From positions 1-21,461 of IMG/VR virus record IMGVR_UViG_3300021599_000491: a stretch of DNA of 21,461 nucleotides; one strand, 5' to 3'. Both the position numbers and the translations under genes were made by a program. Below, one piece after another: positions 3,037-20,564 of the stretch. The stretch's first letter is position 1; every line of letters starts with the position of its first letter. This stretch comes from a virus. Under the pieces are notes generated by a model. That model searched no databases. It saw only the letters and a program-made list of their open reading frames with translations, and was not told the origin of the DNA.

Positions 3037-4002
3037 TTATAGTGCATAGGTTATTTTAACTATACCACTACCACCATTACCTGATATTCCTGTTGAACCA
3101 ACACATCCTCCACCACCATTACCTGTGTTAGCGGCTCCATTAGAACCATTTATCACACCTCCTGATTGACAACCATTTCCTGCTCCACCAACAGAATATC
3201 CTGGTCTATTATTTGATGAACCACCATTACCAGCACAAGTAGCACCATTATTTCCTTGTCCGACAGTTCCTAATCCACCACTACCACAAATAGGGTCGGC
3301 ACAACCTCCTGCACCACCATTACCACCAGCATTACCATTATTTGCGCTACTAAGGCTTGTCGGTGCTCCACCACCTCCACCACCAATTGCTGTAAATCCT
3401 AATCCTGTTGTGTTACCTCCATTTTCACCATTTTGTGAATTACCACCACCAAGACCACCATTACCAATATTAATAGTTCCTCCAGTATTAACTGTTATTG
3501 ATGAATAGTATATTTGGCCTCCGCCACCACCACCGCCACCTGAACCGCCAGAAGAACGACCTCCTCCTCCTCCACCACCACCAGCAACCATCAATAATTC
3601 TACATTACCACCTTGAATTACTGTTAAAGTTCCTGATGAATTAAATGTATGTGTTCTAAATCCACCTGAATCAGTAACAGTTCCACCACTCATTATTACT
3701 TTTGGTATAGCACTTGAACTTGGTGTAGGTGTAGGTGTTAAACTACTTGTTGGCGTTGGTGTAACCGTATTAGTAGGGGTAATAGTTGGTGTAGGAGTCA
3801 AACTACTTGTTGGTGTAACCGTCATTGTTGGGGTTACACTTGGAGTAGGTGTTGGACTAACCGCAGGTCCACTTGAAGGTTGTGGAACATTCATTAAAAT
3901 ACCACCTATCCAAACATTTCCACCCTGTCTTGAACCTGGTGGATAAATCATATCATTAATCTTTGGTTGTCTTCTTGGTGCTTGGTAAGGTCGTAATTTC
4001 AT
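3037..4002 (-). CDS. Pro/Thr-linker glycine-rich adsorption protein
   Basis: 321 residues from the ATG at 4002. A longer reading frame from 4056 would put its first codons inside the hairpin at 4031-4060, so the 4002 start is preferred. Residues 1-41 are a basic and Pro/Gln-rich N-terminus, residues 42-99 are a Thr/Pro/Ser linker, and residues 100-321 include very long Gly runs around 141-165, 178-214 and 222-312. The end (GNGGSGIVKITYAL) matches the closing strand seen in many glycine-rich phage proteins. Gly-rich domains of this sort can fold as packed polyglycine-II helices, as known for the T-even phage S16 gp38 receptor-binding adhesin. Six Cys residues in the last 90 residues (CADPIC, C, C, C) are unusual. 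A role in host binding is inferred from composition and the fibre-gene neighbours. Confidence 0.7.
   Translation of the reverse strand: MKLRPYQAPRRQPKINDMIYPPGSRQGGNVWIGGILMNVPQPSSGPAVSPTPTPSVTPTMTVTPTSSLTPTPTITPTNTVTPTPTSSLTPTPTPSSSAIPKVIMSGGTVTDSGGFRTHTFNSSGTLTVIQGGNVELLMVAGGGGGGGGRSSGGSGGGGGGGGQIYYSSITVNTGGTINIGNGGLGGGNSQNGENGGNTTGLGFTAIGGGGGGAPTSLSSANNGNAGGNGGAGGCADPICGSGGLGTVGQGNNGATCAGNGGSSNNRPGYSVGGAGNGCQSGGVINGSNGAANTGNGGGGCVGSTGISGNGGSGIVKITYAL
3706..3879 (-). repeat. Pro/Thr linker repeat DNA, copy in glycine-rich protein gene
   Basis: About 58 codons of TPTPT/TSSLTPT units. The TSSLTPT phrase occurs twice here (around 3733-3750 and 3795-3810) and once in the propeller gene (2598-2615) with almost the same DNA. 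The shared DNA is long enough to allow recombination between the genes. Confidence 0.8.
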
Positions 4003-4024
4003 ATATGATAAATATAATATAGGC
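4003..4024 (-). promoter_or_regulatory. Possible promoter before glycine-rich protein gene
   Basis: The minus strand reads TATATTTA at 4016-4009, one base from the Bacteroidota -7 consensus TAnnTTTG, just after a hairpin and 6 bases before the ATG at 4002. No clear -33 TTG box is seen at the usual spacing and the stretch is simply AT-rich, so this is a weak candidate. Confidence 0.25.
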
Positions 4025-4030
4025 TTATGA

Positions 4031-4060
4031 AAATGGGGAGATTTTAACCCCCCCATATTT
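4031..4060 (-). terminator. Hairpin after the capsid-module genes
   Basis: On the minus strand AUGGGG (4056-4051) can pair with CCCCAU (4038-4033) across a 12-base loop, and is followed by UUUUCAU. The hairpin begins 11 bases after the stop codon of the tube-like protein. The short U-tail makes it a moderate intrinsic terminator candidate. The flanking A and U runs could extend the stem around one mismatch, so it might act in both directions. It separates capsid-module genes from the adsorption genes. Confidence 0.45.
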
Positions 4061-6239: not shown

Positions 6240-8831
6240 TTAATCGTTTATTTGTTTTATTATGTTTATGATTTCTTGTAATAAATATTCATCATTATCT
6301 TGACGGGAAAAGTTCATAATAAAATTACCTTCAACTGAAAATCCTTTTACCTTACCTTTCTTAATATATTCATTCCAAATGTAATCTCCTTCTTCTGTGT
6401 CCAATACCTTAAATCCACCCATCCAAGTTCCATCAGGTATATTATCCCTTGAAAAACCTAATTGGAAAGATTTATCAGAATCACCCGATACAATCCAACT
6501 CTCCACCATTACCACCGAATCAATCTTGTTATCACTATGTTCATAGTTTGTTCTATCCAATCTCTTTTCAATCATGTAAAGGTTTTGTATTTTTTCTATT
6601 ACCTGTGGTGTGAATTTAACAAAGTATTTTTCCCCATCATCAGATAATCGTGGTATTAGAATATTAGGTATCATTAGTGGAGAATACACCATTCTTTTTT
6701 CATCATCCGCTTTGAACCCCATCTTGGACATTCCCTGTTGTGATATGATGTATGCTACCTCACTCTTTCTTTTTGTTTCAGGTGAGTAATAACCACTATT
6801 TGGTAATTGTTTTGGTGGTATTCCCGCAGTTCCTTCAGCCATGCCTTGGTCTGCAATAACATCACCTTGAACCAAATACTTTCTCCAAGCATGAATACAA
6901 TTAGGTCCACCTTTGTATAACCACTTTGAATATGGTTGTCTTTCATGTCCAAACTCTGTATTGGTATCCCTTAATAAATCTATTTCCAATCTACGGAAAT
7001 ATCTATCTTGAATGGACATACAGAAATCTCTATCAGGTGCTCCTGATAATACCCTTTCATATTTGAAATAGTTTGTAGGTCTTGGGTGGTTTCTTCTTTT
7101 TATTTCGGCTTCGGTTGCACCTCTCATTGCTCCAACAACAGCCTCAAATTGTTCATAGTCATTTTCCTTTAAGAAATATAAGTTTTTAATAACCTCAATT
7201 TCTTCATCAGAATAATCTTCAACACCAAATTCTTCTTCCATCTTTTCAGGGTGTATCTCACAACCCATATAAACGGTATTACCATCTTCATCTGTGTGTG
7301 AATGGTGTCCTGAACATCCATGTTCTGTTTCTCCATATAACTCGGCTTCTTCAGGTGTGGTAAAGACTGGTTCCCCATCTATGAATCCAATCATTGTAAA
7401 GTCCTGTTTCTTATCCACGAACTCATCCAAACAAGGACACATAAATTGAATACCAATACTACCCAATGAATCTATTACATCTTCATTATTGTCGTAATGT
7501 TTATCTATTCTTAAATCCTTTATCTTTTGTAGTTTAGCCCTATTTGAACCTGTTGCAAATACCTTATCATGTGGTATTCCCAATTCTGTTGCAAGGGGAA
7601 GCATTCTCATCTTATCCGACCTTGCTGATATGATATACACATCACTACCTGATTGTAATTCATGTAATGCTAATCCCCTACCTCTTGGTGTATTCAATGT
7701 ATCATCAAAGTCAAAACTGACATTTTGTCCGATTGAATATTCATCTGCTTCTGAATTACAGATTGCGTATGCTTGTTCAGGTGATTTACCTTCATTTTTG
7801 ATAAGGTATTCTGTGCATCTATTGATATAATCTTTTCTATCTTCACCAGGATTTCTTTCAACAAATAATACAGGTTTTATCAACATATTATTTTCAGTAT
7901 CACCTGTTGGATAATTTACATAATCAGGTAGGTTGGATACATCAATATCCATATCTTCCTTTCCCTTACCTGCCTTTGGGTGTTTATCAGGTAATAAATC
8001 ATTATCAGTTGTATATTTTGGATTTTGTGGTCTTCCGTTTTTAAGTAGATATAAATAAGCATTTACCCTTGCATAAGCCCATTGTTCTGCTGACCTTACC
8101 TTTGGTGAGTGTGATGTATTGAATGCTCCCAATCCCCTTTGAAATACTGATTTGAGTTGTCCAAGTGTTGCTCTACCATGTTTGGTATTTGATTCTTTTT
8201 CATTAAAATCATCAACCTTATTTTGTAATGTCTTTTCTTGTTCTGCTGTAACCTTTGCTCCCCTTTTACCACTGGCATCACCCTTTGCTGTTCCTTCACC
8301 TTTTGGGTCTTTGTTTGGTGTGGTTGACTTTGGTGCCTTCTTTGATGGGTTAATTCCACCTCTTGGACCTACCGTAGCCATTTCTTCTTGTTTGGTTATT
8401 ACCCTATCCAAGTAATTCATCACACTATCATAAGTTGATGGTTCAAAACCCCACGATGCGAGAGCAAGATATCCACAACCTTCTTCAAATGATTTGGAAC
8501 TATCCCAATCTTTCTTATGTCTTGTTCCAAACGCCTTCATGCGTTTTAAAGTTTCTATTGATACAGGTTCTCTGTTGGCTAATTGGTTTAACCTTGACTT
8601 ACCCACAGGGGTCATACAATTACCATATCCATTTTCATCAACCCATTTCTTTGCTCTTATTGCCGTATCGGTTATGTATTGTGGATAATCTGTTATGGAA
8701 TCAACAAATTCTTGTTGGGTGAAATATATGAAATCCTGTTCTATTGCTGGCATTCTTACAAGTGCAATCTCTTCCACTCTTGTATCACCAGTTAAGGTTC
8801 CTTCTATATCTAAATCAATTACTTTAATCAT
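6240..8831 (-). CDS. Multi-domain XkdF-type head maturation protease fusion
   Basis: 863 residues, much longer than a usual prohead protease (about 150-350). Visible modules in order: residues 15-36, an XkdF-like opening (VEEIALVRMPAIEQDF); 52-142, a phage domain with the RMKAFGTRH signature and a Gly/Trp end (GYLALASWG); 150-288, a basic low-complexity stretch followed by a DUF5824-like domain (FQRGLGAFNTSHSP, WAYARVNAYLYLLKNGRP); 371-456, a HAD-like domain with FDFDDTL, ISARS and DNNEDV; 588-655, a MuF-like minor head region (RDFC, GGPNCIHAWR); 705-840, the XkdF (Peptidase_S78_2-like) core with probable His765 in YEHSDN and Ser832 in GFSVEG. It is encoded directly before the scaffold, as expected for a head protease that cleaves scaffold and capsid. 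Domain calls are by eye; the HAD and MuF-like roles are inferred. Confidence 0.75.
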   Translation of the reverse strand: MIKVIDLDIEGTLTGDTRVEEIALVRMPAIEQDFIYFTQQEFVDSITDYPQYITDTAIRAKKWVDENGYGNCMTPVGKSRLNQLANREPVSIETLKRMKAFGTRHKKDWDSSKSFEEGCGYLALASWGFEPSTYDSVMNYLDRVITKQEEMATVGPRGGINPSKKAPKSTTPNKDPKGEGTAKGDASGKRGAKVTAEQEKTLQNKVDDFNEKESNTKHGRATLGQLKSVFQRGLGAFNTSHSPKVRSAEQWAYARVNAYLYLLKNGRPQNPKYTTDNDLLPDKHPKAGKGKEDMDIDVSNLPDYVNYPTGDTENNMLIKPVLFVERNPGEDRKDYINRCTEYLIKNEGKSPEQAYAICNSEADEYSIGQNVSFDFDDTLNTPRGRGLALHELQSGSDVYIISARSDKMRMLPLATELGIPHDKVFATGSNRAKLQKIKDLRIDKHYDNNEDVIDSLGSIGIQFMCPCLDEFVDKKQDFTMIGFIDGEPVFTTPEEAELYGETEHGCSGHHSHTDEDGNTVYMGCEIHPEKMEEEFGVEDYSDEEIEVIKNLYFLKENDYEQFEAVVGAMRGATEAEIKRRNHPRPTNYFKYERVLSGAPDRDFCMSIQDRYFRRLEIDLLRDTNTEFGHERQPYSKWLYKGGPNCIHAWRKYLVQGDVIADQGMAEGTAGIPPKQLPNSGYYSPETKRKSEVAYIISQQGMSKMGFKADDEKRMVYSPLMIPNILIPRLSDDGEKYFVKFTPQVIEKIQNLYMIEKRLDRTNYEHSDNKIDSVVMVESWIVSGDSDKSFQLGFSRDNIPDGTWMGGFKVLDTEEGDYIWNEYIKKGKVKGFSVEGNFIMNFSRQDNDEYLLQEIINIIKQIND

Positions 8832-8849: not shown

Positions 8850-11768
8850 TTATAGGGTTGCAAGTTCGTTCAACCTTCTGTTTATCGCTTGTCCATTTGT
8901 TATCTCACTATTCATAACATAAGCACGGATTGGTTCATTTTTACTTTTAGCAATTGCCTGAACTAATCTTTCTTCCATCAAACTATTTGACGGGTTATTC
9001 ACTATTGGTGAACCACCACCCATTTGGTTGATTTGTGATAATAAACCACCGTAGTTCAACGAACTCACCTTGTTTATTACACTCTCCCCACCTTCAAGAT
9101 TAACTCCACCAGCAGCAAAGGAAACACCCCCTTGTTCATGTGATGGACCTACAACCATTCCACCTGCTCCAATTCTAATAATACCACCACCTGCAAGTGA
9201 TTGTGCGGCGGATAATTGTTGTGCTATTAAGGAAATCTGTGCTGCTCCCAACGCTCCAACAGCGATGGCTAATAATGGAATTTCCAAGTTTGCAATAACT
9301 GCTTGTGCTGTATCAGCAATAGCCTGTATCAACTGAAATTGAAGGGATTTAATTAACGCTTTCTTTTCAATTTCCGCCCTTTGTTTTTGGTATTGTCCTT
9401 CTAATTCTATTCTTTTTTGATTGGCTTCTTCTGTATCACCAACAACCTGTGATAATGCATCTTTACTTGCTTTTTCAAGTTGTTCTAATTGGAATGAATA
9501 AGATTGTGCAATCAGTGATGCTGTTCTACCAACCAATGAACTGAATTGTTGTAGTCCTTCTGAAATTGCATCAAGGGTTTTTTTCTGTGCTTTGTTCTTT
9601 TTGTCTTCCGCTGATTCAACTTCTGTTATTTCCTTTTGAAGGGCATCTTTTAATAATTCAAGTTTTTGTTCATAAGTAAGTTTGGAAATATCAACCCCCT
9701 TCTTTAATAGTTGTTCTTGGAAATTAGCAACATCTGTTTGGAATTTCTTTTCTTTATCATAGGTTTTATTACTTACTTCTTCAATAATTTTATCTGCTTC
9801 TGTTCTATTTTTAGCAAGTGCTGCTAAATCAACATCATAAGCATTTGCAAACAACTCCCTATTTTGTAATAAGAAACCAGCAAGTGCTTGTGAATTACTA
9901 CTCAATGATTTGATTTGAGCGTTTAATTCTTCAACCTGTTTTACAGTTGTATCAATACCAATGTTAAACTTTTCATTTTCCAATACAAGGTTTTTGGTGT
10001 TTTCAAATAAAGTTGTTCCAATCTTTTTGTATTGTTCATCCAATGCTGCAAGTTGTTTTGTTCTATCAGCAGGTAATAATTTTGGGTCATTTAATATTTT
10101 ATTCTGTGCTTCAATACCTGATTTGGTTGTCTTAATGTAGGCAACATAAGCGGCAACAAATCTTTCTTGTTGTTGTTGTGCTGTAATTCTAATCTGTGCT
10201 GCTCTTTCAGGTGAGAATATCACTGTTTCACTTTCAAGTAATGCCAGTTCCTTAAACGCATTTCTAAATTCAGCAACATTAAATGGTGGTTTAATATTCG
10301 CCTTGCCAATCTCAAATAATGTATTACTTAATAGAATTAAATTACTACTCAATTTTTGCACTTGAACAACTGTTTCAGGTGATACATAATCCTTATTTAA
10401 TTCAATAAAGGTTTGTGTTGCTTTGTTAATCTTATCCTGTTCAATTTTTAATTGTTCAACAGTAATACCTGCTTTACCAGCATTTTCACTAAACACATCA
10501 AATGCGGCTGATAATGATTTTAACTCATCACCTGCAATATCCCTAATTGAACCAAATGTTTCTTGTAATTTAAGAGCAAATTGTTCTTCATAAGGTAATG
10601 TTTCAATCAAGACATTTTTTAACTCTTCAAGATTTTTAACCCTGTTTTTACCAGTTTCAACAATCTTTGAATCAACCTCACCAATCTTATATCCAAGTGT
10701 ATTTAATTTGTTTTCTAATTCTAATCTCTGTCCTAATAACTCAATTTCTTTTTGTATGATTACTGCTCTTTCTGATGATGTTTTCTTTCTTGTTTCATTA
10801 AGTTGGATTTCCAAATCAATTTCATCCAATTTAATTTGTTGTTCCAACTTGAATCTTTCAACCCCTAACCTTCTACCTTCTTTGGCAAAATCATCACTTA
10901 ACTTTTGTATTGCTGCTTTTCTTTCTTTTTCATCTTTTATGTTGGCACTAATTTCTTTCTGCCTTTCCATACGCAATCTAACCAAATCTTTAACCTCCCT
11001 GTCAATAAGTTCTATTGTATCCAAGTTGGCTTGTTTCTTTAATTCTGCTATTTGTTGTATTGACGCACCTTCCAATTCAGCGGTTTTTAATTTTAACGCC
11101 AAGTTTGATTCAATGGTTGTTCTTTCCAAATCATATCCATATAAAGTGTCTTCCAATACCTTATTGTATGATTCTTGTGCTTTTTCAGCATCATAGGTTG
11201 CATCTGCAAGGGTAAGATATGCCGTAACTAATAATCCAATTACCGCCAAAATTACTCCATAAGGATTGGCAGCAAGGGTGGTGTATAACGCTTTTGTGGC
11301 ACTATTGCTTGCAAGTGTTGCGGCTGTTGATGCCTTCTCTGCTATGGTCTTGGCAACAATATCTGCCCCTGTCTTTATTTCGGCAATACCCCTTAAAGAT
11401 AATGCTACGGTTAAAAGGTTTTGTGCTTGGGTTGCAGCCTTTTGGACTGATTCACTTTCATTTCCAAATAAGGATACTGCGGCAGTTGCGGCAGCAAATG
11501 ATGATGCAATACCAGCACCCAACTTACCAAATCCTTCAAGGGTTTTTTCTTTGGATATTCCCTTTGCGGCATCTTGTAATCCAATCAGTTTAGTTTCAGC
11601 CTGACTAATTTCTTTTGCAAGTTGGTTGAATATGGGTCCACCAATCTCAACCTCTTTAAGGTCTTCTTTTGCTTTTCTTATTTCTTCTTCTAATGTTTTG
11701 ATATCAGTTATTACTGTATTCAAACCATTAAGTTGGATTCTTATTCCTATTGTGCGTTCACCTGCCAT
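8850..11768 (-). CDS. Tail tape measure protein
   Basis: 972 residues, the protein that sets tail length and may help DNA entry. It is largely helical with long charged coiled-coil stretches (LEEEIRKAKEDLKEVE near the start, KKNKAQKKTLDAISEGLQQF near residue 730) and one hydrophobic segment at about 165-190 (NPYGVILAVIGLLVTAYL). The last 120 residues are Gly-rich with GPSHEQGGVSFAAGG and LEGGESVINK, a C-terminal form common in tape measure proteins. Using the accepted rule of about 0.15 nm per residue, the tail would be near 145 nm long, typical of a siphovirus. It begins 2 bases after an HNH endonuclease gene and ends 18 bases before the protease fusion, so the chaperone genes that usually precede it are far upstream. 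Confidence 0.88.
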   Translation of the reverse strand: MAGERTIGIRIQLNGLNTVITDIKTLEEEIRKAKEDLKEVEIGGPIFNQLAKEISQAETKLIGLQDAAKGISKEKTLEGFGKLGAGIASSFAAATAAVSLFGNESESVQKAATQAQNLLTVALSLRGIAEIKTGADIVAKTIAEKASTAATLASNSATKALYTTLAANPYGVILAVIGLLVTAYLTLADATYDAEKAQESYNKVLEDTLYGYDLERTTIESNLALKLKTAELEGASIQQIAELKKQANLDTIELIDREVKDLVRLRMERQKEISANIKDEKERKAAIQKLSDDFAKEGRRLGVERFKLEQQIKLDEIDLEIQLNETRKKTSSERAVIIQKEIELLGQRLELENKLNTLGYKIGEVDSKIVETGKNRVKNLEELKNVLIETLPYEEQFALKLQETFGSIRDIAGDELKSLSAAFDVFSENAGKAGITVEQLKIEQDKINKATQTFIELNKDYVSPETVVQVQKLSSNLILLSNTLFEIGKANIKPPFNVAEFRNAFKELALLESETVIFSPERAAQIRITAQQQQERFVAAYVAYIKTTKSGIEAQNKILNDPKLLPADRTKQLAALDEQYKKIGTTLFENTKNLVLENEKFNIGIDTTVKQVEELNAQIKSLSSNSQALAGFLLQNRELFANAYDVDLAALAKNRTEADKIIEEVSNKTYDKEKKFQTDVANFQEQLLKKGVDISKLTYEQKLELLKDALQKEITEVESAEDKKNKAQKKTLDAISEGLQQFSSLVGRTASLIAQSYSFQLEQLEKASKDALSQVVGDTEEANQKRIELEGQYQKQRAEIEKKALIKSLQFQLIQAIADTAQAVIANLEIPLLAIAVGALGAAQISLIAQQLSAAQSLAGGGIIRIGAGGMVVGPSHEQGGVSFAAGGVNLEGGESVINKVSSLNYGGLLSQINQMGGGSPIVNNPSNSLMEERLVQAIAKSKNEPIRAYVMNSEITNGQAINRRLNELATL

Positions 11769-11770
11769 GA

Positions 11771-12259
11771 TTATTTAATGTGTTTCCAAGTTTTATTGTG
11801 TATTAAAGGATATATTGTTCCATAAGACACATTAAATTTTCTACTTAATGCTCTCATACCAAATTTTTTATCTCTTGGTGTGTAATTGTTTCTTATGAAA
11901 GAAATATCATTTTCTGTTAATTTAGATAAATATTGTTTTTCACCCTTACAAGTATTAATAAGATTATTTTTAAAAGCGTGTTTCATATTTTCTTTCTTTG
12001 TGTTCCATTCAAGATTTGAACTTACATTGTTTAATTTATTACCATCAATATGGTTTACATCAGGTTTTTTTTCAGGATTTGATATATAACACTCTGCAAC
12101 CATTCTATGAATAAGAAATTTATTAATTTTTTTATCAACATATATAGAACATCTTCTATACCCTGAATTACTAACTTCACCTTTTAATTCATAACCTTTT
12201 GGACCTATAACCTTTCCATCTTCACTTACAAAGTATTCGGTATCTCTAAATCTTTTCAT
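11771..12259 (-). CDS. HNH endonuclease, NUMOD4-type, with C-terminal HTH
   Basis: 162 residues from the ATG at 12259; an earlier start at 12286 would overlap the previous gene and the promoter-like box, so it is less likely. Residues 8-45 look like a NUMOD4 region (YFVSEDGKVIG, GYRRCSIYV). Residues 51-94 form the HNH core: HRMVAECYISNP, then DVNHIDGNKLNN, NLEWNTKKEN and a final His. Residues 129-152 look like a helix-turn-helix (MRALSRKFNVSYGTIYPLI). This is the usual make-up of free-standing phage homing endonucleases, which cut DNA lacking the gene and spread by repair. It is inserted between the tail-tip gene and the tape measure gene, is richer in A/T than its neighbours, and has its own promoter-like box. 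Confidence 0.88.
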   Translation of the reverse strand: MKRFRDTEYFVSEDGKVIGPKGYELKGEVSNSGYRRCSIYVDKKINKFLIHRMVAECYISNPEKKPDVNHIDGNKLNNVSSNLEWNTKKENMKHAFKNNLINTCKGEKQYLSKLTENDISFIRNNYTPRDKKFGMRALSRKFNVSYGTIYPLIHNKTWKHIK

Positions 12260-12263
12260 ACTA

Positions 12264-12271
12264 CAAATATA
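12264..12271 (-). promoter_or_regulatory. TAnnTTTG -7 box before HNH gene
   Basis: The minus strand reads TATATTTG, a full match to the Bacteroidota -7 consensus, ending 4 bases before the ATG at 12259. A TTG lies 12 bases upstream of the box, shorter than the usual 17-23, so the -33 part is uncertain. If active, the transcript would have almost no leader. The other HNH gene has the same arrangement. Confidence 0.5.
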
Positions 12272-12279
12272 AACAATTC

Positions 12280-14844
12280 TTAACAAGTTTGTGATAGAAT
12301 TTCTCCTATGTTATTTATTACCACATAACTATCTGTATCTGCGGTGTATCTGATGTATGTTCCCAAATTTACTGGTTGATATCCTGTTACAGCACTGAAA
12401 TAAACCTGTTGTAAATCAGTCAATCCTGATGTTCCAAATGTTGTTAGAGTTGTTGTTGGTGCTGTTCCCAAACATACTGGTTGTTGTGTTAAACCTGTAT
12501 AACAGGTAAGGGTGTAAGCACTCAATAAACCAGGATATGGTGTATTACCTGAAATTGCATAATATGGTGCTGGTGGGGTTACCTTGTAATAACCACCCCT
12601 TTCTTTAATCAAGGAACATTCAGTTAGTTTTGTTTGGATTAAATCTGCTTCATTTATTCTTTCAATGCGATAAAAACTATCCTTAACATAAATCTTATCT
12701 GTAAGTTTTGTATCATACACATCTAATGGACGGAGCAAGAATCTACCTGTTAATCTTCTGGTTTCATTTGAATAGTTGTCATCAACATAATCTTCCCAAA
12801 AGGTATTGAATAGATTGTATTGTGTAAATTGAACTGGTAAGGTGTTATAGTTTCCAAAGAAATCAAATGTTGATTGGAAATTCAAATCAGACACCAAGTC
12901 AGGTATTAGAATATCTAATGAACTCAAATGTGATACACACGGATAAGTTGTCTGTTCATATTGGGTTGTCCCTGATGATAACCACCATGTTCCTTGTTGT
13001 TGTTTAAATTTGTCCTTATATGCAAATCTATTTCCTACCCAAAAGAATAGGTGTGGTTTATTTGAATATGGTTGTAATTGGTTATTTAATTCACGATAAA
13101 CTGCTGGTATAATGAAATTATCTGCTCCATTAACAACGGTTGTTGGTGTTGCAGCAAATGGAACCTCATAAGTTTGTTCTGATGTGAGTAAATTATTCGT
13201 TGAAATATATTTAAATCTTCCATACTGATATTTGTTTTGGTCTTCAAATATCTTATTTAGATATTCTTCTGAACCTTTTGTATAAGTCCAATTCACCTCT
13301 TTTGGTAAATCAAATGATAATGGTTCTACCCTGTATGTTGAGTTCAAATCCAATCTCTGTGTCCAATCCTTAACATCCCTATCTTCTTCGTTGTAATACC
13401 AATTAAATGGTATAATCTTGATGGTCTTGGACAACTCATCTTGGATGACAACCAAGTTAAATAGTGTGATAAGTGATTTAATAAAATCTATACAATTTAT
13501 CTGTTGTAGTCCCAATCTAATATCAACAAGTTGTGTTCCTGCTAATGTTGGTGATGAGTATAAATCCCACATTGGTGCTGGTGATGAAACACCAAAAGAA
13601 TTGTAAGGTAATAATCTTAAATCACAATTGTTATCATTTCTATTAACTTGGATATATGCTTTAACAAAATCACCAGCATCACAATTAAATGTTGGGAAAA
13701 AGTTAAATGGTTCTTGTAGTCCTGATGTTGGTAATTGAACTGTATCAGATGCGGCACATAAAGGTTCAGAATCCAATGTGGATAAGTTTCTACCTTTTCT
13801 CATAACCACTTGGAAATATACATCACCCCCACCAACAAAGTTATTATCATCATAATTAAACCTGATGTTGAATGAATATTGTCCACCAAATGGAACCCTG
13901 AAAAATGAATGTGTTGGTTGGTTACCAGGATTTATTGAGTTATATGGAACGGCTTTATCAAAGTTTCCAAGTGGGTCTGAACCATCACCCCTGAAATTGT
14001 TAAATAACAAATCCTTTGTTCCTGTAATGTTGTTATAGACAACAGCACCATTTGTGTATATCTTGAAGATGTTTTGGTTTGTTACACCCGATGCAACATC
14101 AACACCAAGTTTTCCATTTTGGAATGTATCCATATACATTGAACGGAAATAATCTGTTTCAAAAAACTCTGATTCAACACCATAACCCGTCTTTGCGAAT
14201 ATTCTATCAACAACCTCTTTAACCCTAATGGCTGGTTTCCATATTGATTCAGGAACTGGTTTGTTTGATTGGTCAAATGAGTTTGCTTCACCAAAGGTAT
14301 ATGTGAATACTGGTGTTGTTCCGTTATATGGTAGTCCATAGTTAATCATTGGATACAATACCTTACCACCAAATAAACCATCAGTGTCGTTGTTCTTACA
14401 TTCCCAAGATTTGGTTATTGCAGTATAAGTTAGTTCATGTTGTAGGTCAGTCCAATTCAGGTCCTGTAATGTAATGTTTCTTATTTCAGATGCAAAATCA
14501 CCAACATTACCCATAATATACACCTCATAATCTGTGTAGTTTGGATTTTCAATTACTGCTGATAATCGTAATATACCTGTGAATATATCTGTTCCCCTAT
14601 ACTGAACCACACAATCTATTCTTGTAAGGGGGTTAAAGTCAATTCCATTTACCTCGTAGTATTGTTCAAATATCTTTGCGTTGTTATCTGTGTTTGGAAC
14701 AACAAATTGTTTTGAATATGGTGATTTTCTTGTATCAAGAGCATTGATGTCCACCTGTTGGATAATAACAGAAATTGGAATATCTTCATAGATATCCAAT
14801 CTATTCCATTGGTTGTTAAGATATACCAGTAGTGATGTATCCAT
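12280..14844 (-). CDS. Tail-tip / baseplate structural protein
   Basis: 854 residues, probably a tail-tip or baseplate hub component. The N-terminal 130 residues (ISVIIQQVDINALDTRKSPYSKQF, then YRGTDIFTGILRL) resemble the opening of large minor tail proteins in Bacteroidota phages. The middle is rich in beta-strand and aromatic residues (YSFNIRFNYDD, FNWYYNEEDRDVKDW). The C-terminal 85 residues form a Cys-containing, Thr-rich module (CYTGLTQQPVCLG to the final Cys) that looks added on, in the manner of the Cys modules in the gene at 15392. It follows the 177-residue gene by 1 base, in the middle of the tail module. I see no lysozyme or protease motif. The call rests on position, size and remembered similarity. 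Confidence 0.6.
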   Translation of the reverse strand: MDTSLLVYLNNQWNRLDIYEDIPISVIIQQVDINALDTRKSPYSKQFVVPNTDNNAKIFEQYYEVNGIDFNPLTRIDCVVQYRGTDIFTGILRLSAVIENPNYTDYEVYIMGNVGDFASEIRNITLQDLNWTDLQHELTYTAITKSWECKNNDTDGLFGGKVLYPMINYGLPYNGTTPVFTYTFGEANSFDQSNKPVPESIWKPAIRVKEVVDRIFAKTGYGVESEFFETDYFRSMYMDTFQNGKLGVDVASGVTNQNIFKIYTNGAVVYNNITGTKDLLFNNFRGDGSDPLGNFDKAVPYNSINPGNQPTHSFFRVPFGGQYSFNIRFNYDDNNFVGGGDVYFQVVMRKGRNLSTLDSEPLCAASDTVQLPTSGLQEPFNFFPTFNCDAGDFVKAYIQVNRNDNNCDLRLLPYNSFGVSSPAPMWDLYSSPTLAGTQLVDIRLGLQQINCIDFIKSLITLFNLVVIQDELSKTIKIIPFNWYYNEEDRDVKDWTQRLDLNSTYRVEPLSFDLPKEVNWTYTKGSEEYLNKIFEDQNKYQYGRFKYISTNNLLTSEQTYEVPFAATPTTVVNGADNFIIPAVYRELNNQLQPYSNKPHLFFWVGNRFAYKDKFKQQQGTWWLSSGTTQYEQTTYPCVSHLSSLDILIPDLVSDLNFQSTFDFFGNYNTLPVQFTQYNLFNTFWEDYVDDNYSNETRRLTGRFLLRPLDVYDTKLTDKIYVKDSFYRIERINEADLIQTKLTECSLIKERGGYYKVTPPAPYYAISGNTPYPGLLSAYTLTCYTGLTQQPVCLGTAPTTTLTTFGTSGLTDLQQVYFSAVTGYQPVNLGTYIRYTADTDSYVVINNIGEILSQTC

Positions 14845-15391: not shown

Positions 15392-16780
15392 TTAACAAGG
15401 TCCTGCGTAAGTTATTGATGTATATGAACTACCTGATGTTGCGGTAAATGAACTAACACATCCACAAATAAACACATTTTCTGATGGTGTTAAGTTGTAT
15501 GTATATGGTGTTCCATCACAGAAAGTATAACTGATGGTTGCTCCTGATACTGATGATGAATTGTCTATTTCATATTCACCACAAGCACAAGGGGTCGCTG
15601 ATGGTGTTGGTGTTGGTGTAGGTGATGGAATTACACAAGGTGAATCGTAGGTTACTGCCAAATTACCTTCAATACTCCAACTTGTTGTAGAACATACACA
15701 AACATAGAATGTCTCACTTGGGTTCAATACTAATTGTTGTTGTATATTACTACAATCTCTATAAGTGAATATTCCCTGTGCTTCCAATGAATTGTTGGTA
15801 ACCTCATAAGTTATACAAGGACAAGATTGTGGTGTTGATGACGGGGTTGGTGTTGGTGTAGGTGTTGGTTGTATTGGTGATGTTGAACCTGTGAATTTAC
15901 CAAACAACTGAACGGTATATTGTGCCGTGTTTGCAGGTATAATATCTTGTAGGTTTGCAGGTCCTGCTCCAACATAAAGTGTATTATAGTTTGTATTGCC
16001 TGATGGAATAATCAAAGGTAATGCTTGATATACATCAGTGCAACCTGTTCTTGGACCACCACCATTGGTTGTAATGTTATCTATCGTTACAGCGGTTAAG
16101 GTTGTGCCTTGGTCATCATAAAAGGTATATTGAACATAATAAGGTTCAGATAAGGTTGTTGTATCCAAGTAGTAGTTTGTAAATCCAAGTGTATAATATT
16201 CTGTATCTTGAATATTTCTAATTCTTGGTGAATTGGTTAAGAATAATCCTGATGTTGTTGGGTCTGTGTTTGTTGGTGCTCCTGACAATACAAATGGACC
16301 CATATCAAAGTCCTGTTGTGTTGCCCTACCATTTACACCCATTGTTGATTTAAATGTTTTCTTCAGTGGTGTTGATACACCAGGATTACCTTCTACCAAT
16401 CCATTACCAGTGAATGCACTTACCACACCAAGTTCGGTTGATGAATATTCATAACCAAAATATACTTGGTAATTTATTGTCTCATTTTGAGATGGACGGC
16501 TAAACGGAAATGTTTGATGTGTATAAATTTCTGTTGTATTCCAAAGTGATATTGGATTGTTTAGACAATATGTCTTTAATACCCTTGATACATCAGCAAC
16601 CCCCAATCCAAATGGGTTTGGTGTTGCCTTGGCACTGAACTCCAATGTTCCATTTACATAGACATCATAGTTGTATCTGAATTGGTATTTATTTGTCGTA
16701 TCAGCAGATACGGTATAAAACAACCCATTGGTTAATACAGGTTGAAATGATGGTGGTTGGTGTAATATTGATATGCTCAT
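15392..16780 (-). CDS. Minor tail protein with two Pro/Thr-linked Cys modules
   Basis: 462 residues. Residues 1-300 are a beta-rich tail protein region (FRYNYDVYVNGTLEFSAKATPNP, GVADVSRVLKTY) similar in style to minor tail proteins of Bacteroidota phages. Two spacer-module pairs follow: linker 301-317 (PTPTPTPTPSSTP), Cys module 320-382, linker 383-397 and Cys module 398-462. Each module has CPC or CAC at its start, an inner Cys after SYTFC or TYRDC, a FxCxC near the middle and a last Cys, suggesting a small Cys-stabilised or metal-binding beta domain repeated twice. The protein could display these modules on the tail surface. Its ATG shares one base with the stop of the gp10-like gene. Function of the modules is unknown. 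Confidence 0.62.
   Translation of the reverse strand: MSISILHQPPSFQPVLTNGLFYTVSADTTNKYQFRYNYDVYVNGTLEFSAKATPNPFGLGVADVSRVLKTYCLNNPISLWNTTEIYTHQTFPFSRPSQNETINYQVYFGYEYSSTELGVVSAFTGNGLVEGNPGVSTPLKKTFKSTMGVNGRATQQDFDMGPFVLSGAPTNTDPTTSGLFLTNSPRIRNIQDTEYYTLGFTNYYLDTTTLSEPYYVQYTFYDDQGTTLTAVTIDNITTNGGGPRTGCTDVYQALPLIIPSGNTNYNTLYVGAGPANLQDIIPANTAQYTVQLFGKFTGSTSPIQPTPTPTPTPSSTPQSCPCITYEVTNNSLEAQGIFTYRDCSNIQQQLVLNPSETFYVCVCSTTSWSIEGNLAVTYDSPCVIPSPTPTPTPSATPCACGEYEIDNSSSVSGATISYTFCDGTPYTYNLTPSENVFICGCVSSFTATSGSSYTSITYAGPC
15395..15589 (-). repeat. Cys module, copy 2
   Basis: Second of two tandem modules of about 65 residues (residues 398-462): CAC start, a strand pair ending in YTFCDG, then LTPSENVFICGC and a TYAGPC end. 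It aligns with copy 1 through the order of its Cys residues. Confidence 0.65.
15635..15823 (-). repeat. Cys module, copy 1
   Basis: First of two tandem modules (residues 320-382): CPC start, TYRDC, then LNPSETFYVCVC and a TYDSPC end. The pattern of six Cys is the same as in copy 2, and a Pro/Thr linker separates the two. Confidence 0.65.
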
Positions 16781-17346
16781 TATAGTTTAATGTTAATTCC
16801 TGTATCTTGGAAATATACTTTTAGTGATTCATCAAGCAGGTCAGATATGTATTGTCCTGCTGCATCACCTAATTTTTCGGTTATTTGGTCAATAACATTG
16901 TTTATTGCTTTATTCACAAAATCTGTTTTGTAGTAACCATACTTTGCGATTGAACGGGCTCTTAAAAAGTTTAAGGTCTTTCTTGGAATAAATCTACCCT
17001 GTTGGTCCCTTACCCCTGATAAACCTTGTTTAACAATGCTCCATCTATCAATTGCTGACAATGGTGGATATCTACCAGGTCTTCTGCCTTGGTCTACCCA
17101 TATCCAATAGTCAGGCATCTCAACAACCAGTTGTGGTTTTCCTGATTCAAGATTGTCCTTCCAAAATACATCAATGTTATTTATTAAATTACCTGATGCA
17201 ATTGGTGGTGTCTTTGGATAGGTGTAATTACCCGATATTGGTTTCTTCCTTCCATCATAGGTTTTAGATTGTCTTGGAACCTTTAATTGTTTTTGTAAGG
17301 CTTCCTTGATTATCTTTGGTATTTCTAAAAACAACTTATCATCCAT
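16780..17346 (-). CDS. HK97-gp10-like tail/neck completion protein
   Basis: 188 residues from the ATG at 17346; a GTG three codons earlier (17355) is possible. It is probably a neck or tail completion protein of the HK97-gp10-like group, which sits at the head-tail junction or the tail end. Evidence is the basic N-terminus, the paired strands and loop MPDYWIWVDQGRRPGRYPP, and the helical end (FVNKAINNVIDQITEKLGDAAG). The Asp-Gln-Gly-Arg-x-Pro-Gly-x-Tyr-Pro-Pro signature is one I associate with this group. Its start overlaps the tail-terminator-like gene by 8 bases and its stop overlaps the next ATG by one base (TAATG), showing tight coupling. Confidence 0.65.
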   Translation of the reverse strand: MDDKLFLEIPKIIKEALQKQLKVPRQSKTYDGRKKPISGNYTYPKTPPIASGNLINNIDVFWKDNLESGKPQLVVEMPDYWIWVDQGRRPGRYPPLSAIDRWSIVKQGLSGVRDQQGRFIPRKTLNFLRARSIAKYGYYKTDFVNKAINNVIDQITEKLGDAAGQYISDLLDESLKVYFQDTGINIKL

Positions 17347-17812
17347 AGTAATCACATGCGTTAATATCGGTTCTTATGATTACCTCCATATCAATAGATA
17401 TACCACCAACATAATCGTTGAAACGCTCTAAAAAGGGTAATCCTGTCAATGGTAAGTTACAATCCATATAGTTCCACAATGGTGGGTCTTGGTTCATACC
17501 CCTACGGATATAAGACATAAACCTTCTTGCTTGGATATCCATATCACTTACAACATCAATTTCATTAGACATATCATCGTTGATTCTGTCTGCAAAGATT
17601 AACTGCATTGTATAGGTGATTATATTTTCATCATAACTGATATTCTGTGGTGTAACAAACATAAATGGATATGTTGGTGTCATACCTGATTCAGTCATAC
17701 CAAACATTACAATGTTTCCATGTCCAAATGAGTTTAACCCAATCCCTTGTTGTGATACCTGATAATCCTGAAATAACTGAATTATCTTGTGATATGATAC
17801 ATATTCTTCCAT
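17339..17812 (-). CDS. Tail-terminator-like protein
   Basis: 157 residues: an N-terminal helix (SYHKIIQLFQDYQ), then strands containing YPFMFVTPQNISYDENIITYTMQLIF, a helix (DIQARRFMSYI) and a last strand (GISIDMEVIIR). This helix-strand layout is that of tail terminator proteins (lambda gpU-like), which cap the tail tube. Its ATG overlaps the stop of the -1 frame chaperone product by one base (TAATG), and it is followed directly by the gp10-like gene, as in many siphophage head-tail joining clusters. The call rests on layout and position, with no catalytic motif to check. Confidence 0.5.
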   Translation of the reverse strand: MEEYVSYHKIIQLFQDYQVSQQGIGLNSFGHGNIVMFGMTESGMTPTYPFMFVTPQNISYDENIITYTMQLIFADRINDDMSNEIDVVSDMDIQARRFMSYIRRGMNQDPPLWNYMDCNLPLTGLPFLERFNDYVGGISIDMEVIIRTDINACDYYG

Positions 17813-18614
17813 TACTTATATTGTTTTTCTAATTTTCTTAATTCTTCTTTTTGTTTTAAATATCTTTCTTTTAACATGGAACAGATATTCAGACATAAAT
17901 ATAGTGGTTGGTTATCTATCTGCTGAAATTTGGTAATGTCTTCCCCTGCAAGTTGGTGGGTAAGGTTAAAATAGAATCTAACGGCAGTTTCCTTTTTACC
18001 CATTTTGGTAGTATCTTCCACCCCTTCACTATCATCTGGTTTAATTTGTTCTTCATAGTCAAAGAACTCTCTATATCTTTCATATACAGATTGACGGTTA
18101 TGAAAAAAAAAACGCTCACACCAAACCAATAATTCACAGGTAAGGTAAGGAACTCATTTGCTCTTTCTTCAATGGTATCAGCATCATAGGCTTCCAATAC
18201 ATACTTGTTCTTTTTTCTTTCTTTGATTGGACGGTATAATACCGACATAAGTAGATGAATATTTTCTTCAATATCTTCTGATGAGAATACCTCCAAATCT
18301 ACCCATGCTCCCCAAGCAAGTTTCTGCCAGTTATTCTCCAATCCATATTCAACCCCATTATGGGTGAAAACATTATGTAATTCATCACTGATGGACTTAT
18401 CTGTGAATTGTGTGGTAATATACTCCTGAACAAATTTGACTTGTTCTAATGGTAAATTCTTTAATTGTCTAACAGGAATATTGGTGTATAGGGATAACAA
18501 CGCTGTTGGGTCATCCTTATATGAATCCATATTTCTTTTTAGGTTCTGGTATTGACCGATTGTAAGATATGGGTTTACCTCCACTACCTTATCTTCTACT
18601 TCTATTTGTATCAT
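17812..18614 (-). CDS. Tail-assembly chaperone, -1 frameshift product (GT-like)
   Basis: Predicted fusion of 267 residues. Codons 1-171 are read in the frame of the shorter product; ribosomes then slip by -1 on the T10 run (18103-18112) and read 96 further codons from CAT at 18102 to the stop at 17814. Support: the downstream frame has no ATG or GTG start near its beginning (only a TTG at 18129), stays open for 96 codons, and its stop overlaps the next gene's ATG (TAATG). The new part (FYFNLTHQLAGEDITKF, then a charged helix KERYLKQKEELRKLEKQYK) resembles a T-type domain, which in lambda recruits tail tube subunits to the tape measure protein. A mis-sized homopolymer in the read or a natural frameshift mutation is the main alternative. 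Confidence 0.7.
17916..18614 (-). CDS. Tail-assembly chaperone, unshifted product (G-like)
   Basis: 232 residues, mainly helical. It holds ENIHLLMSVLYRPI, YVLEAYDADTIEE and LPVNYWFGVSVFFF, an order I recognise from tail-assembly chaperones of Bacteroidota phages, in which the aromatic FFF helix comes late. Codons after the slippery run continue for 61 residues (ITVNLYMKDIESSL to TLPNFSR), which is longer than the short tail usual in G-type proteins. It starts one base into the stop of terL, and would bind the tape measure protein during tail assembly. The family call is by motif recall. Confidence 0.72.
   Translation of the reverse strand: MIQIEVEDKVVEVNPYLTIGQYQNLKRNMDSYKDDPTALLSLYTNIPVRQLKNLPLEQVKFVQEYITTQFTDKSISDELHNVFTHNGVEYGLENNWQKLAWGAWVDLEVFSSEDIEENIHLLMSVLYRPIKERKKNKYVLEAYDADTIEERANEFLTLPVNYWFGVSVFFFITVNLYMKDIESSLTMKNKLNQMIVKGWKILPKWVKRKLPLDSILTLPTNLQGKTLPNFSR
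18102..18108 (-). promoter_or_regulatory. -1 frameshift slippery site
   Basis: In the unshifted frame the heptamer is T TTT TTC, a classic X XXY YYZ slippery sequence, within a run of ten T (18112-18103). After slipping, both tRNAs would re-pair on TTT TTT and the next codon is CAT at 18102. A downstream stimulatory hairpin or pseudoknot is not obvious by eye. Confidence 0.65.
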
Positions 18615-19774
18615 TATATTATTGTTATTTTAGTTTTAGGTCTGTCTAAAAATTGGACTATACCATATTTCAAGGCATCAATTAAGTGGTCTTTACCTAT
18701 GGTGTTATTTGTTATTGCACCAGTGCGGTCTTTCTTAAATTTAAAGTTAGTAAACTCACTGATTAAATCCACACTCTCATTATGTAAGTATATCTTGAAT
18801 TGTTTCATCTTTTGTATTCCATATAAGATACTGGTTTTGTTTACAGGTCTAACATTTATCCCCAATCTTTTAAGTTCTTCAATGGACTTTGGCTCTGCTG
18901 AATCTGCTACCACATTTACATTTCTGTCTATTCCTAACTCTTTGAGTTTATAGGCTAAATCTTCATTGGTTAGTCCAAGTTGATATATCAGTTGTTTAAC
19001 ATATAAATTCCTACCATCCACATTTATTTCCACTACAGCACACTCATCATTACTAAACCCGAAATCTATTGAATAATACTTGTCCTTGATATGTCTTGGT
19101 AGTTCATCATACAATTCTGGTTGTGTGAATATCTTTTCTCTTGGTTCAACAATAAGACCTTCTGAATATATCTTTGCCATATCAGGGTCAATGTCTATAA
19201 GTTCCTTGATGGCTTGAATTGTTCTTTTGTCCAAGAAACTATTCATTCTCCAAGTGGAGTGTAACATTACCCCATTATCTTTTCCTTCATATTCTAATCC
19301 CCACCAGTCAATCGGTATTTCAGGGTTGTATAAAGCCATAATATACTTGGAACAACGAATATCCATTTGGATAAAGGCGTTTCTATCAATGGTGTTTACC
19401 TCATCAATTAAGATAATGTCAGATTTAAATCCTTTTAACTTACCAGTTGAATCATCAAGTCCAATAAATCTAACTACCGAACCATTTGGAAATGTGTATA
19501 CAAATTCTTGTTTTTGGAATACCCCTTCATCCCATTGTCCAATAGATTCCATTACAAACTTGAAATCAGGTAATATGGTATGTCTTAAAGATACTTGCGT
19601 TGCACGGGCTATGGTTATACTTGTCTTGGGGTTTTTGATTGCTTCCAAGATGATGTATTGTATTGCTGATATTGTTTTAGAAGAACGAGAACTACCCCTT
19701 AAAAAGATATATCTCTTTTGTTCTTCAACAGCATTGTTGATATGTTCCCATACTTCAGTTACTTGAAATTTCAT
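18614..19774 (-). CDS. terL: Terminase large subunit
   Basis: 386 residues, the ATPase-nuclease motor that packages DNA into proheads and cuts it. The N-terminal ATPase shows Walker A GSSRSSKT at residues 27-34 and Walker B with acidic end IILIDE at 120-125. The C-terminal RNase H-like nuclease shows Asp237 in YYSIDFGF, Asp291 in VVADSAEP and an acidic pair at 362/366 in GKDHLIDALKYG. The layout and length fit the PBSX/XtmB (Terminase_3) group, close to complete. Its ATG lies 20 bases inside the end of the HNH gene, so its ribosome binding region is inside that gene. No small terminase lies before it; it may be outside the window. Confidence 0.95.
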   Translation of the reverse strand: MKFQVTEVWEHINNAVEEQKRYIFLRGSSRSSKTISAIQYIILEAIKNPKTSITIARATQVSLRHTILPDFKFVMESIGQWDEGVFQKQEFVYTFPNGSVVRFIGLDDSTGKLKGFKSDIILIDEVNTIDRNAFIQMDIRCSKYIMALYNPEIPIDWWGLEYEGKDNGVMLHSTWRMNSFLDKRTIQAIKELIDIDPDMAKIYSEGLIVEPREKIFTQPELYDELPRHIKDKYYSIDFGFSNDECAVVEINVDGRNLYVKQLIYQLGLTNEDLAYKLKELGIDRNVNVVADSAEPKSIEELKRLGINVRPVNKTSILYGIQKMKQFKIYLHNESVDLISEFTNFKFKKDRTGAITNNTIGKDHLIDALKYGIVQFLDRPKTKITII

Positions 19775-20528
19775 TTCCCCATTCTTCAGATATTTTATCG
19801 GACTTTTTTAAATTGTCTTCCCACCATAAAGGTTTTAAATTAGTATAATGATTTAAACGAAATATATCTTCTTCAGTTTTAGCAAATGAAATTGGTATGT
19901 GATGGTCTAAATGCCAACCATTAACTCCATAGTTATCCCAAGACATTCCTTCTTGAAAATTATTTTCAATATGATTTTTAAATGTTTCCCAATCACATCC
20001 AATATATTCACTTGTTCTACTTCTTTTTGTAAAACCATTTTTTCTACAGGCTTCACGAATACGACAACTAACCCTACTTTTTAATTTGAATAAAAGATTT
20101 GTATTAGTTTTAATTTGCATATATTCTCTACGGTATTTTTTAATAATTTCTTTTACTTCAGGTTTATCTCTATATTTTTTTGCGTTTACTATAAGATTTG
20201 ATGGGTTTTCTTTTTTCCAATTATCTTCGTAAATTTTACGACATAATTTACAATCATTTCTATACCCATCTTTATTTTCTTTTTTCTTTGAAAAGAAAGA
20301 AATGTCTTTTTTAATATGACAAGTATTACAAATTTTATTTTTAACAAATATTTTCGCTATACTAATTTCATTTTGATATATTTTTTTTGACCTTTCTTTT
20401 GAGCGTTCTCTATAACAAACTTTACAAACTGAATTATACCCACTCTTCGCTGTTAAGTTTTGATAAAAATCATTCAAAGATTTATCAACACCACATTTAC
20501 TACAAGATTTATATATAATCGTTTCCAT
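19755..20528 (-). CDS. HNH endonuclease with two CxxC zinc-ribbon units
   Basis: 257 residues from the ATG at 20528 (an in-frame start at 20555 lies upstream of the promoter-like box). Residues 9-38 and 67-96 are two four-Cys units (CSKC...CKVC and CNTC...CKLC), likely zinc ribbons. Residues 205-245 are the HNH core (WHLDHHIPISF, then LNHYTNLKPLWWEDNLKKSDK). The middle is very basic. Enzymes of this make-up are free-standing endonucleases in phages, and an HNH next to terL is known in some phages (HK97 gp74) to assist packaging. Here the A/T-rich codon use, the separate promoter-like box and the 20-base overlap into terL suggest later insertion. Packaging helper and homing endonuclease are both possible. 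Confidence 0.87.
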   Translation of the reverse strand: METIIYKSCSKCGVDKSLNDFYQNLTAKSGYNSVCKVCYRERSKERSKKIYQNEISIAKIFVKNKICNTCHIKKDISFFSKKKENKDGYRNDCKLCRKIYEDNWKKENPSNLIVNAKKYRDKPEVKEIIKKYRREYMQIKTNTNLLFKLKSRVSCRIREACRKNGFTKRSRTSEYIGCDWETFKNHIENNFQEGMSWDNYGVNGWHLDHHIPISFAKTEEDIFRLNHYTNLKPLWWEDNLKKSDKISEEWGNEISSN

Positions 20529-20532
20529 ACAA

Positions 20533-20540
20533 CAAAGATA
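20533..20540 (-). promoter_or_regulatory. TAnnTTTG -7 box before HNH gene
   Basis: The minus strand reads TATCTTTG, a full match to the Bacteroidota -7 consensus, ending 4 bases before the ATG at 20528. As at the second HNH gene, a TTG lies 12 bases upstream of the box, closer than is usual for the -33 element. A transcript from here would be nearly leaderless. Confidence 0.5.
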
Positions 20541-20564
20541 ATACTTTTTTATCAATCTAAAAAA

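Follow-up and report, generated by a model that had tools for sequence, protein, structure and literature searches.

We describe a conserved, dual-coded recoding junction in a phage gene, which is probably a variant of the tail-chaperone frameshift with a different slippage step. Frameshifting in tail chaperone genes is a textbook phage recoding event, taken to be ribosomal and to occur near the end of the gene. The family found here is widespread, probably among phages of Bacteroidota. We see about an even chance that slippage of a polymerase on runs of 9 to 12 Ts, and not of the ribosome, sets the ratio of two tail assembly proteins in this family, the shorter of which has a selected, folded extension.

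A ten-T run lies between two open frames in the window

The window is the whole stretch of DNA that was analysed, an IMG/VR virus record (IMGVR_UViG_3300021599_000491) of 21,461 bases. Its structural genes are located on the minus strand, and the features relevant for the following analysis are:

18614–19774, minus strand: terminase large subunit, directly upstream of the recoded gene and overlapping its start by one base (PHROG terminase matches, E 2e-28)
17916–18614, minus strand: unshifted (zero-frame) product, 232 aa (ORF; phrog_32199, E 3.5e-9; AF2 pLDDT 86)
18114–18614, minus strand: N domain, 167 codons, common to both predicted products (alignment)
18103–18112, minus strand: putative slippage site, read as T10 in coding sense and as A10 on the plus strand (T9 or longer at 246/246 distinct related sites)
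17916–18102, minus strand: dual-coded stretch, which encodes the zero-frame tail and, in –1, the beginning of the C domain (dual selection test with controls; synonymous-codon null, p = 0.0075)
17812–18102, minus strand: –1 frame C domain, 96 codons (45% identity to the relative L016; alignment; AF2 pLDDT 74)
17339–17812, minus strand: next gene, 157 aa, with a start codon that shares bases with the –1 stop (TAATG); its position resembles that of a tail terminator
16780–17355, minus strand: tail completion or Neck1-like gene (phrog_5, E 2.9e-5)
8850–11768, minus strand: probable tape-measure protein, 972 aa (length; weak phrog_20739 match, E 0.003)

On the minus strand the junction reads GTGAGCG-T10-CATAACC, and no other A/T run in the 21.5 kb window reaches nine bases. 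The unshifted ORF (18614–17916) reaches the ten Ts and the following C at codon 168 and continues for 61 codons beyond the run; its product consists of the N domain and a 61-residue tail found in the zero frame only. The –1 frame stays open for 96 codons past the run, down to 17812, where its TAA overlaps the next ATG. Near its start it contains neither ATG nor GTG, only a TTG at 18129. A frameshift would join the C domain to the N domain, and the final third of the C domain is single-coded. An earlier note, made from the letters of the window, had reported a ten-T run with T_TTT_TTC where the –1 frame begins, the length of both open frames, the missing start codons and the TAATG overlap; all its statements on the sequence are correct.

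The run and both open frames are conserved in relatives

Relatives were collected by protein and profile scans of IMG/VR, which gave at least 580–600 confirmed candidates per profile scan, the best 80 of each being kept. A re-survey in which the T run was not demanded comprised 334 loci with 257 distinct junction contexts, 246 of them with enough sequence. These 246 distinct sites, among them those of the isolated Nonlabens phages P12024S and P12024L, represent 60 clusters at 60% N-domain identity. Every site has at least nine Ts in a row (T9 at 194, T10 at 49, T11 at two and T12 at one), and runs of eight or fewer Ts were not found at any of the 246 junctions. Runs this long were counted only 106 times in the initial 660 kb of sense-strand DNA from relatives (overlapping loci included), nearly always at the junction. 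The comparison of these two numbers excludes a chance origin of the T run.

Downstream of the run, the zero frame is open for 23–73 codons (median 54; one site, L049, excepted) and the –1 frame for 56–103 codons (median 83) across the 246 sites. The –1 continuation is a conserved domain of about 80–100 codons, and the length of the overlap varies from clade to clade. Upstream of the run, ATG, GTG and TTG are all absent from the –1 frame in 215 of 245 relatives, and from the run onward 237 of 245 have no ATG within 30 codons. Internal initiation of the –1 frame is excluded in most relatives, since they lack start codons there.

The two isolated phages show the same anatomy, with T9, a zero frame open for 24 codons and a –1 frame of 80 codons. 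In both genomes the pair is annotated as two unconnected hypothetical genes (gp38–gp39 in P12024S, gp40–gp41 in P12024L). They were the only relatives found by tblastn of the phage collection, where the –1 domain alone as query gave no match, and a scan of GTDB genomes for prophage relatives found none. The hosts of the family are apparently marine and freshwater Bacteroidota, an assignment based on the Nonlabens isolates; for the window, we infer the host.

Homopolymer runs are prone to error, and two near-identical junctions, in L049 and L043, differ by a single T, as would fit a sequencing or assembly indel within one continuous gene. The identical arrangement at 246 distinct sites, which stem from independent assemblies, and in both isolates rules this reading out, and one continuous frame was found in no relative; we regard its probability as negligible.

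The earlier note had named relatives with only one open frame as evidence against its proposal. One such site exists, L049, with T9 in place of the T10 of L043. This one-T difference rotates the frames, and in L049 the zero frame closes after two codons while the C domain lies in +1. This could be either an assembly slip or a natural switch. Both frames are open at the other sites. In a further locus (L300:500-760), T9 is retained further upstream of the surveyed T3, but a TAG breaks the –1 C domain.

Sequence tests place both frames of the overlap under protein-level selection

Dual translation of the overlap had been proposed in the earlier note together with a codon-level selection analysis, which we carried out in three parts. 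In the first test, the –1 protein was held fixed, synonymous codons were redrawn and the length of the open unshifted frame was scored, resulting in p = 0.0075 for the window and p ≤0.005 for many other lineages. In the second, we compared 731 sequence pairs with simulations, in which the second sequence evolved under constraint on the –1 frame only and codon distances (synonymous and non-synonymous) were fitted on the N domain. The observed identity in the unshifted frame was 19.5 residues on average compared to 12.6 in the simulations (mean z 3.1; BLOSUM z 3.7), with z below 0 in 3.4% of the pairs. The same pairs show no stop in the unshifted frame, where 2.5 were expected. The third part consisted of controls, with z ∼0 for alternative frames of the N domain and 0.8–0.9 for the single-coded end of the –1 domain; the 731 pairs are non-independent, and the controls carry the same dependence.

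AlphaFold, run on 46 unshifted sequences, reached a pLDDT of 86 and predicts a single helix (residues 161–201) that crosses the slip site, the unshifted tail being confident up to about residue 210. The –1 domain is predicted to be helical as well (pLDDT 74).

It is highly improbable that the zero frame behind the run is open by accident and that the –1 fusion or the short product alone matters. Such an accident would agree with the different overlap lengths between clades and with the zero frame of L049. It does not agree with an identity above the –1-only expectation while controls stay near zero, the lack of stops, an open frame too long for synonymous shuffling and the confident helix. Judged by these comparisons, the overlap is truly dual-coding. 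Because both of its readings are under protein-level selection, the short form should possess a folded C-terminal extension of its own.

Run length points to probable slippage of the polymerase

A ribosomal –1 slip requires an in-frame U_UUU_UUN, that is 7–9 Ts depending on the phase, with the requirement reduced by one T where N is C. The run begins at codon position 1, 2 and 3 in 14, 217 and 14 sites, respectively, and its minimal length is nine Ts in all three phases (0, 1 and 2), although 7 to 9 would be sufficient by phase. In all 179 phase-1 sites with T9, a purine (A or G) follows the run. At these sites, a change of the eighth T to C would therefore be synonymous in either frame (Phe TTT/TTC; Leu TTR/CTR), and U_UUU_UUC would remain. 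Elsewhere in these genes, CTA or CTG encodes 26% of such leucines, yet the change is used by none of the 39 clusters (P ∼8e-6; P 4e-3 if the CTA/CTG rate is halved).

We also searched the 70 nt after the run for conserved structure and found none family-wide (90 sampled relatives, mean z –0.13; controls –0.24 and –0.04). An Rfam scan of the junction gave no match, and a promoter scan gave fewer matches than chance. In bacteria, runs of nine A/T represent the threshold both for selection against and for use of transcriptional slippage (PMC1088944; PMC5009743), and the run for such slippage is given as T_n with n > 8 (PMC3711429). Based on the floor of nine in every phase, the unused doubly synonymous change, the absence of conserved structure and this threshold, we favor polymerase slippage over ribosomal –1 slippage as the probable mechanism of the frame change. 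In the literature searched, we found no description of a phage tail chaperone that uses transcriptional slippage, which is not proof of absence.

The earlier note had assumed a ribosomal slip at T_TTT_TTC. Every T9+ run contains an in-frame heptamer of the X_XXY_YYZ type (U_UUU_UUU or U_UUU_UUC) in every phase, but this is not the best-supported mechanism: T_TTT_TTC by itself is not used by any relative, and at least nine Ts are kept whatever the phase. The same two products and the same dual coding could result from ribosomal –1 frameshifting on this heptamer, as in lambda and P2, an explanation that we consider less probable but that deserves serious attention. Slippage of the ribosome is the known mechanism of tail chaperones (PMC5009743), and P2 slips on TTTTTTG. 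The window's own 70 nt past the run fold better than shuffled sequences (z –3.1), and a strict need for U_UUU_UUU, combined with constraint on hydrophobic residues in both frames, could account for the outer Ts. The phase-independent floor, the unused change to U_UUU_UUC and the lack of a conserved downstream structure in the sampled relatives speak against a ribosomal slip, and polymerase slippage remains our preferred reading.

The recoded gene is likely a tail assembly chaperone

Tail chaperones are characterized by a frameshift that yields two products. Here, two products with a common N domain are predicted, with both frames conserved and selected and the –1 frame mostly devoid of start codons. 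PHROG 32199, of unknown function, spans the family and is matched by 45 of 46 members. Six of the 46 match phrog_166 (tail protein; best E 2.4e-4) in the same profile region as P2 gpE, which matches at 4e-7, and three show a match to Phage_TAC_7 (best 1.1e-3); these chaperone matches are weak or fall below threshold. The top structural match is likewise weak, the HK97 chaperone 2ob9 with Z 3.5 over 74 residues (rmsd 4.3). The window protein itself matches neither Pfam nor a known chaperone family. Foldseek of both models against the PDB returned no significant match, hhalign against the single sequences of lambda G, P2 E, Mu gp41 and HK97 gp13 returned nothing, and the PADLOC result was empty.

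The two-product design, the tail-completion gene downstream and the matches to phrog_166, Phage_TAC_7 and 2ob9 make it likely that the recoded gene encodes a tail assembly chaperone similar to P2 gpE. The role suggested in the earlier note is plausible through these weak profile matches; the location behind the terminase and not beside the tape-measure gene speaks against it. The typical place of a chaperone is just upstream of the tape-measure gene, and in the window the genes from 17812 to 11771 lie between the two. In view of the terminase directly upstream, the five structural genes and one HNH gene that separate the pair from the tape-measure gene, and a window protein that lacks a Pfam match, the pair could be real and serve another function, for instance as a head-tail or packaging accessory. 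We consider this unlikely given the tail-completion type of the downstream genes, the phrog_166 and Phage_TAC_7 signals and the two-product frameshift, which is typical of tail chaperones, and we retain the chaperone assignment.

A weak structural relative, gp10 of Flavobacterium phage 6H (L108:10352-10927), contains T_TTT_TTC; its unshifted frame ends four codons later and is followed by a 105-codon frame. It was not used as a relative, as its –1 frame stops at once and no T9 run is found there.

Some further observations concern the neighborhood. Near-identical recoded genes are preceded by two very different terminases, one in L010, L012, L014 and L015 and the other in L011, L013 and the window (18614-19774). 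The two types of large subunit upstream are MKFQVTEVWEHI.. and MKISTT.VFEELL..; the pattern looks like an exchange of the terminase with its boundary precisely at the start of the recoded gene. The gene after the pair, without a family match in the window (157 aa), is longer in L009, L010, L011, L012 and L016, where it is followed by a Pro/Thr-rich linker and a variable extension of ∼180–290 aa. Two endonuclease genes are inserted in the window, an HNH gene beside the tape-measure gene (11771-12286) and an HNH, endonuclease VII-like gene just upstream of the terminase (19755-20555). Long (S/P/T)PT repeats form linkers in three structural genes (1374-2834, 3037-4056 and 15392-16780), which suggests module shuffling of tail or decoration proteins. 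A protein of 863 aa (6240-8831) seems to be built from several modules, among them a HAD/nucleotidase-like segment and, at its C-terminal end, a part resembling a head maturation protease.

Comparison with known recoding systems

By sequence, the overlap could be at most 20 codons long in lambda, 16 in HK97, 14 in TM4 and 11 in each of P2 and Mu; Bxb1 allows up to 49 codons, its G-run being located about 10 codons before the stop. The earlier note had called the overlap unusually long for a lambda-type pair, and indeed the 61 codons of the window far exceed the at most 20 possible in the first five phages; the family ranges from 23 to 73. The small overlaps possible there make the new family exceptional among the textbook cases measured.

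P2 E/E+E′ (Phage_TAC_7) resembles the new family in that one gene yields a short and a –1-extended product at a T-rich slip site, and its gpE shares the phrog_166 match with some members. It differs by six Ts, an overlap of at most 11 codons and a position beside the tape-measure gene, in contrast to T9–T12, 23–73 codons and a position behind the terminase. Lambda G/GT (Phage_TAC_2) and HK97 gp13/14 (Phage_TAC_1) likewise have two products, a shared N domain and a –1 shift. Unlike in the new family, the slip occurs at most 20 codons from the G stop on a GGGAAAG-type site and close to the tape-measure gene; neither system matches the new family in sequence.

Transcriptional slippage at A9/T9 in Thermus dnaX, Shigella mxiE/spa13 and IS elements shares the conserved run of at least nine A/T at a frame junction, whatever the phase. 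These genes are not phage tail chaperones. In the potyvirus P3N-PIPO, polymerase slippage opens a long frame that overlaps the original one, which itself runs on (PMC4552492); there, the polymerase is that of an RNA virus, the site is GAAAAAA and the proteins are unrelated. P12024S/L belong to the same family as the window, with T9 and both frames open, and differ in their shorter overlap and an N domain that is only 28% identical.

A model for two products from one gene

We propose that the recoded gene would give rise to two products. The majority of transcripts, with the templated number of Us, would encode the 232-aa unshifted protein consisting of the N domain and the helical tail. RNA polymerase would slip on the run of 9–12 Ts, adding one U (or dropping two), and a minority of transcripts would consequently be read in the –1 frame after T10 to produce a protein of ∼264 aa with the N and C domains. 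By analogy with P2 E/E+E′ or lambda G/GT, the pair would most likely serve as a tail assembly chaperone, the short form being abundant and the long form, which would connect the tape measure with the tail tube, rare. Taken as a whole, with two products, a tail chaperone, polymerase slippage and dual selection, we hold this scheme to be somewhat better than evenly supported.

A large, unannotated family of environmental phages thus appears to reach the two-product design by means of a homopolymer, of which the length and not the phase is conserved, and both frames carry meaning over as many as 73 codons. Should this hold, polymerase slippage would be added to the ways by which phages set the ratio of their tail proteins. 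Comprising hundreds of related loci as well as two phages in culture, the family offers a natural and testable case of dual-coding protein evolution.
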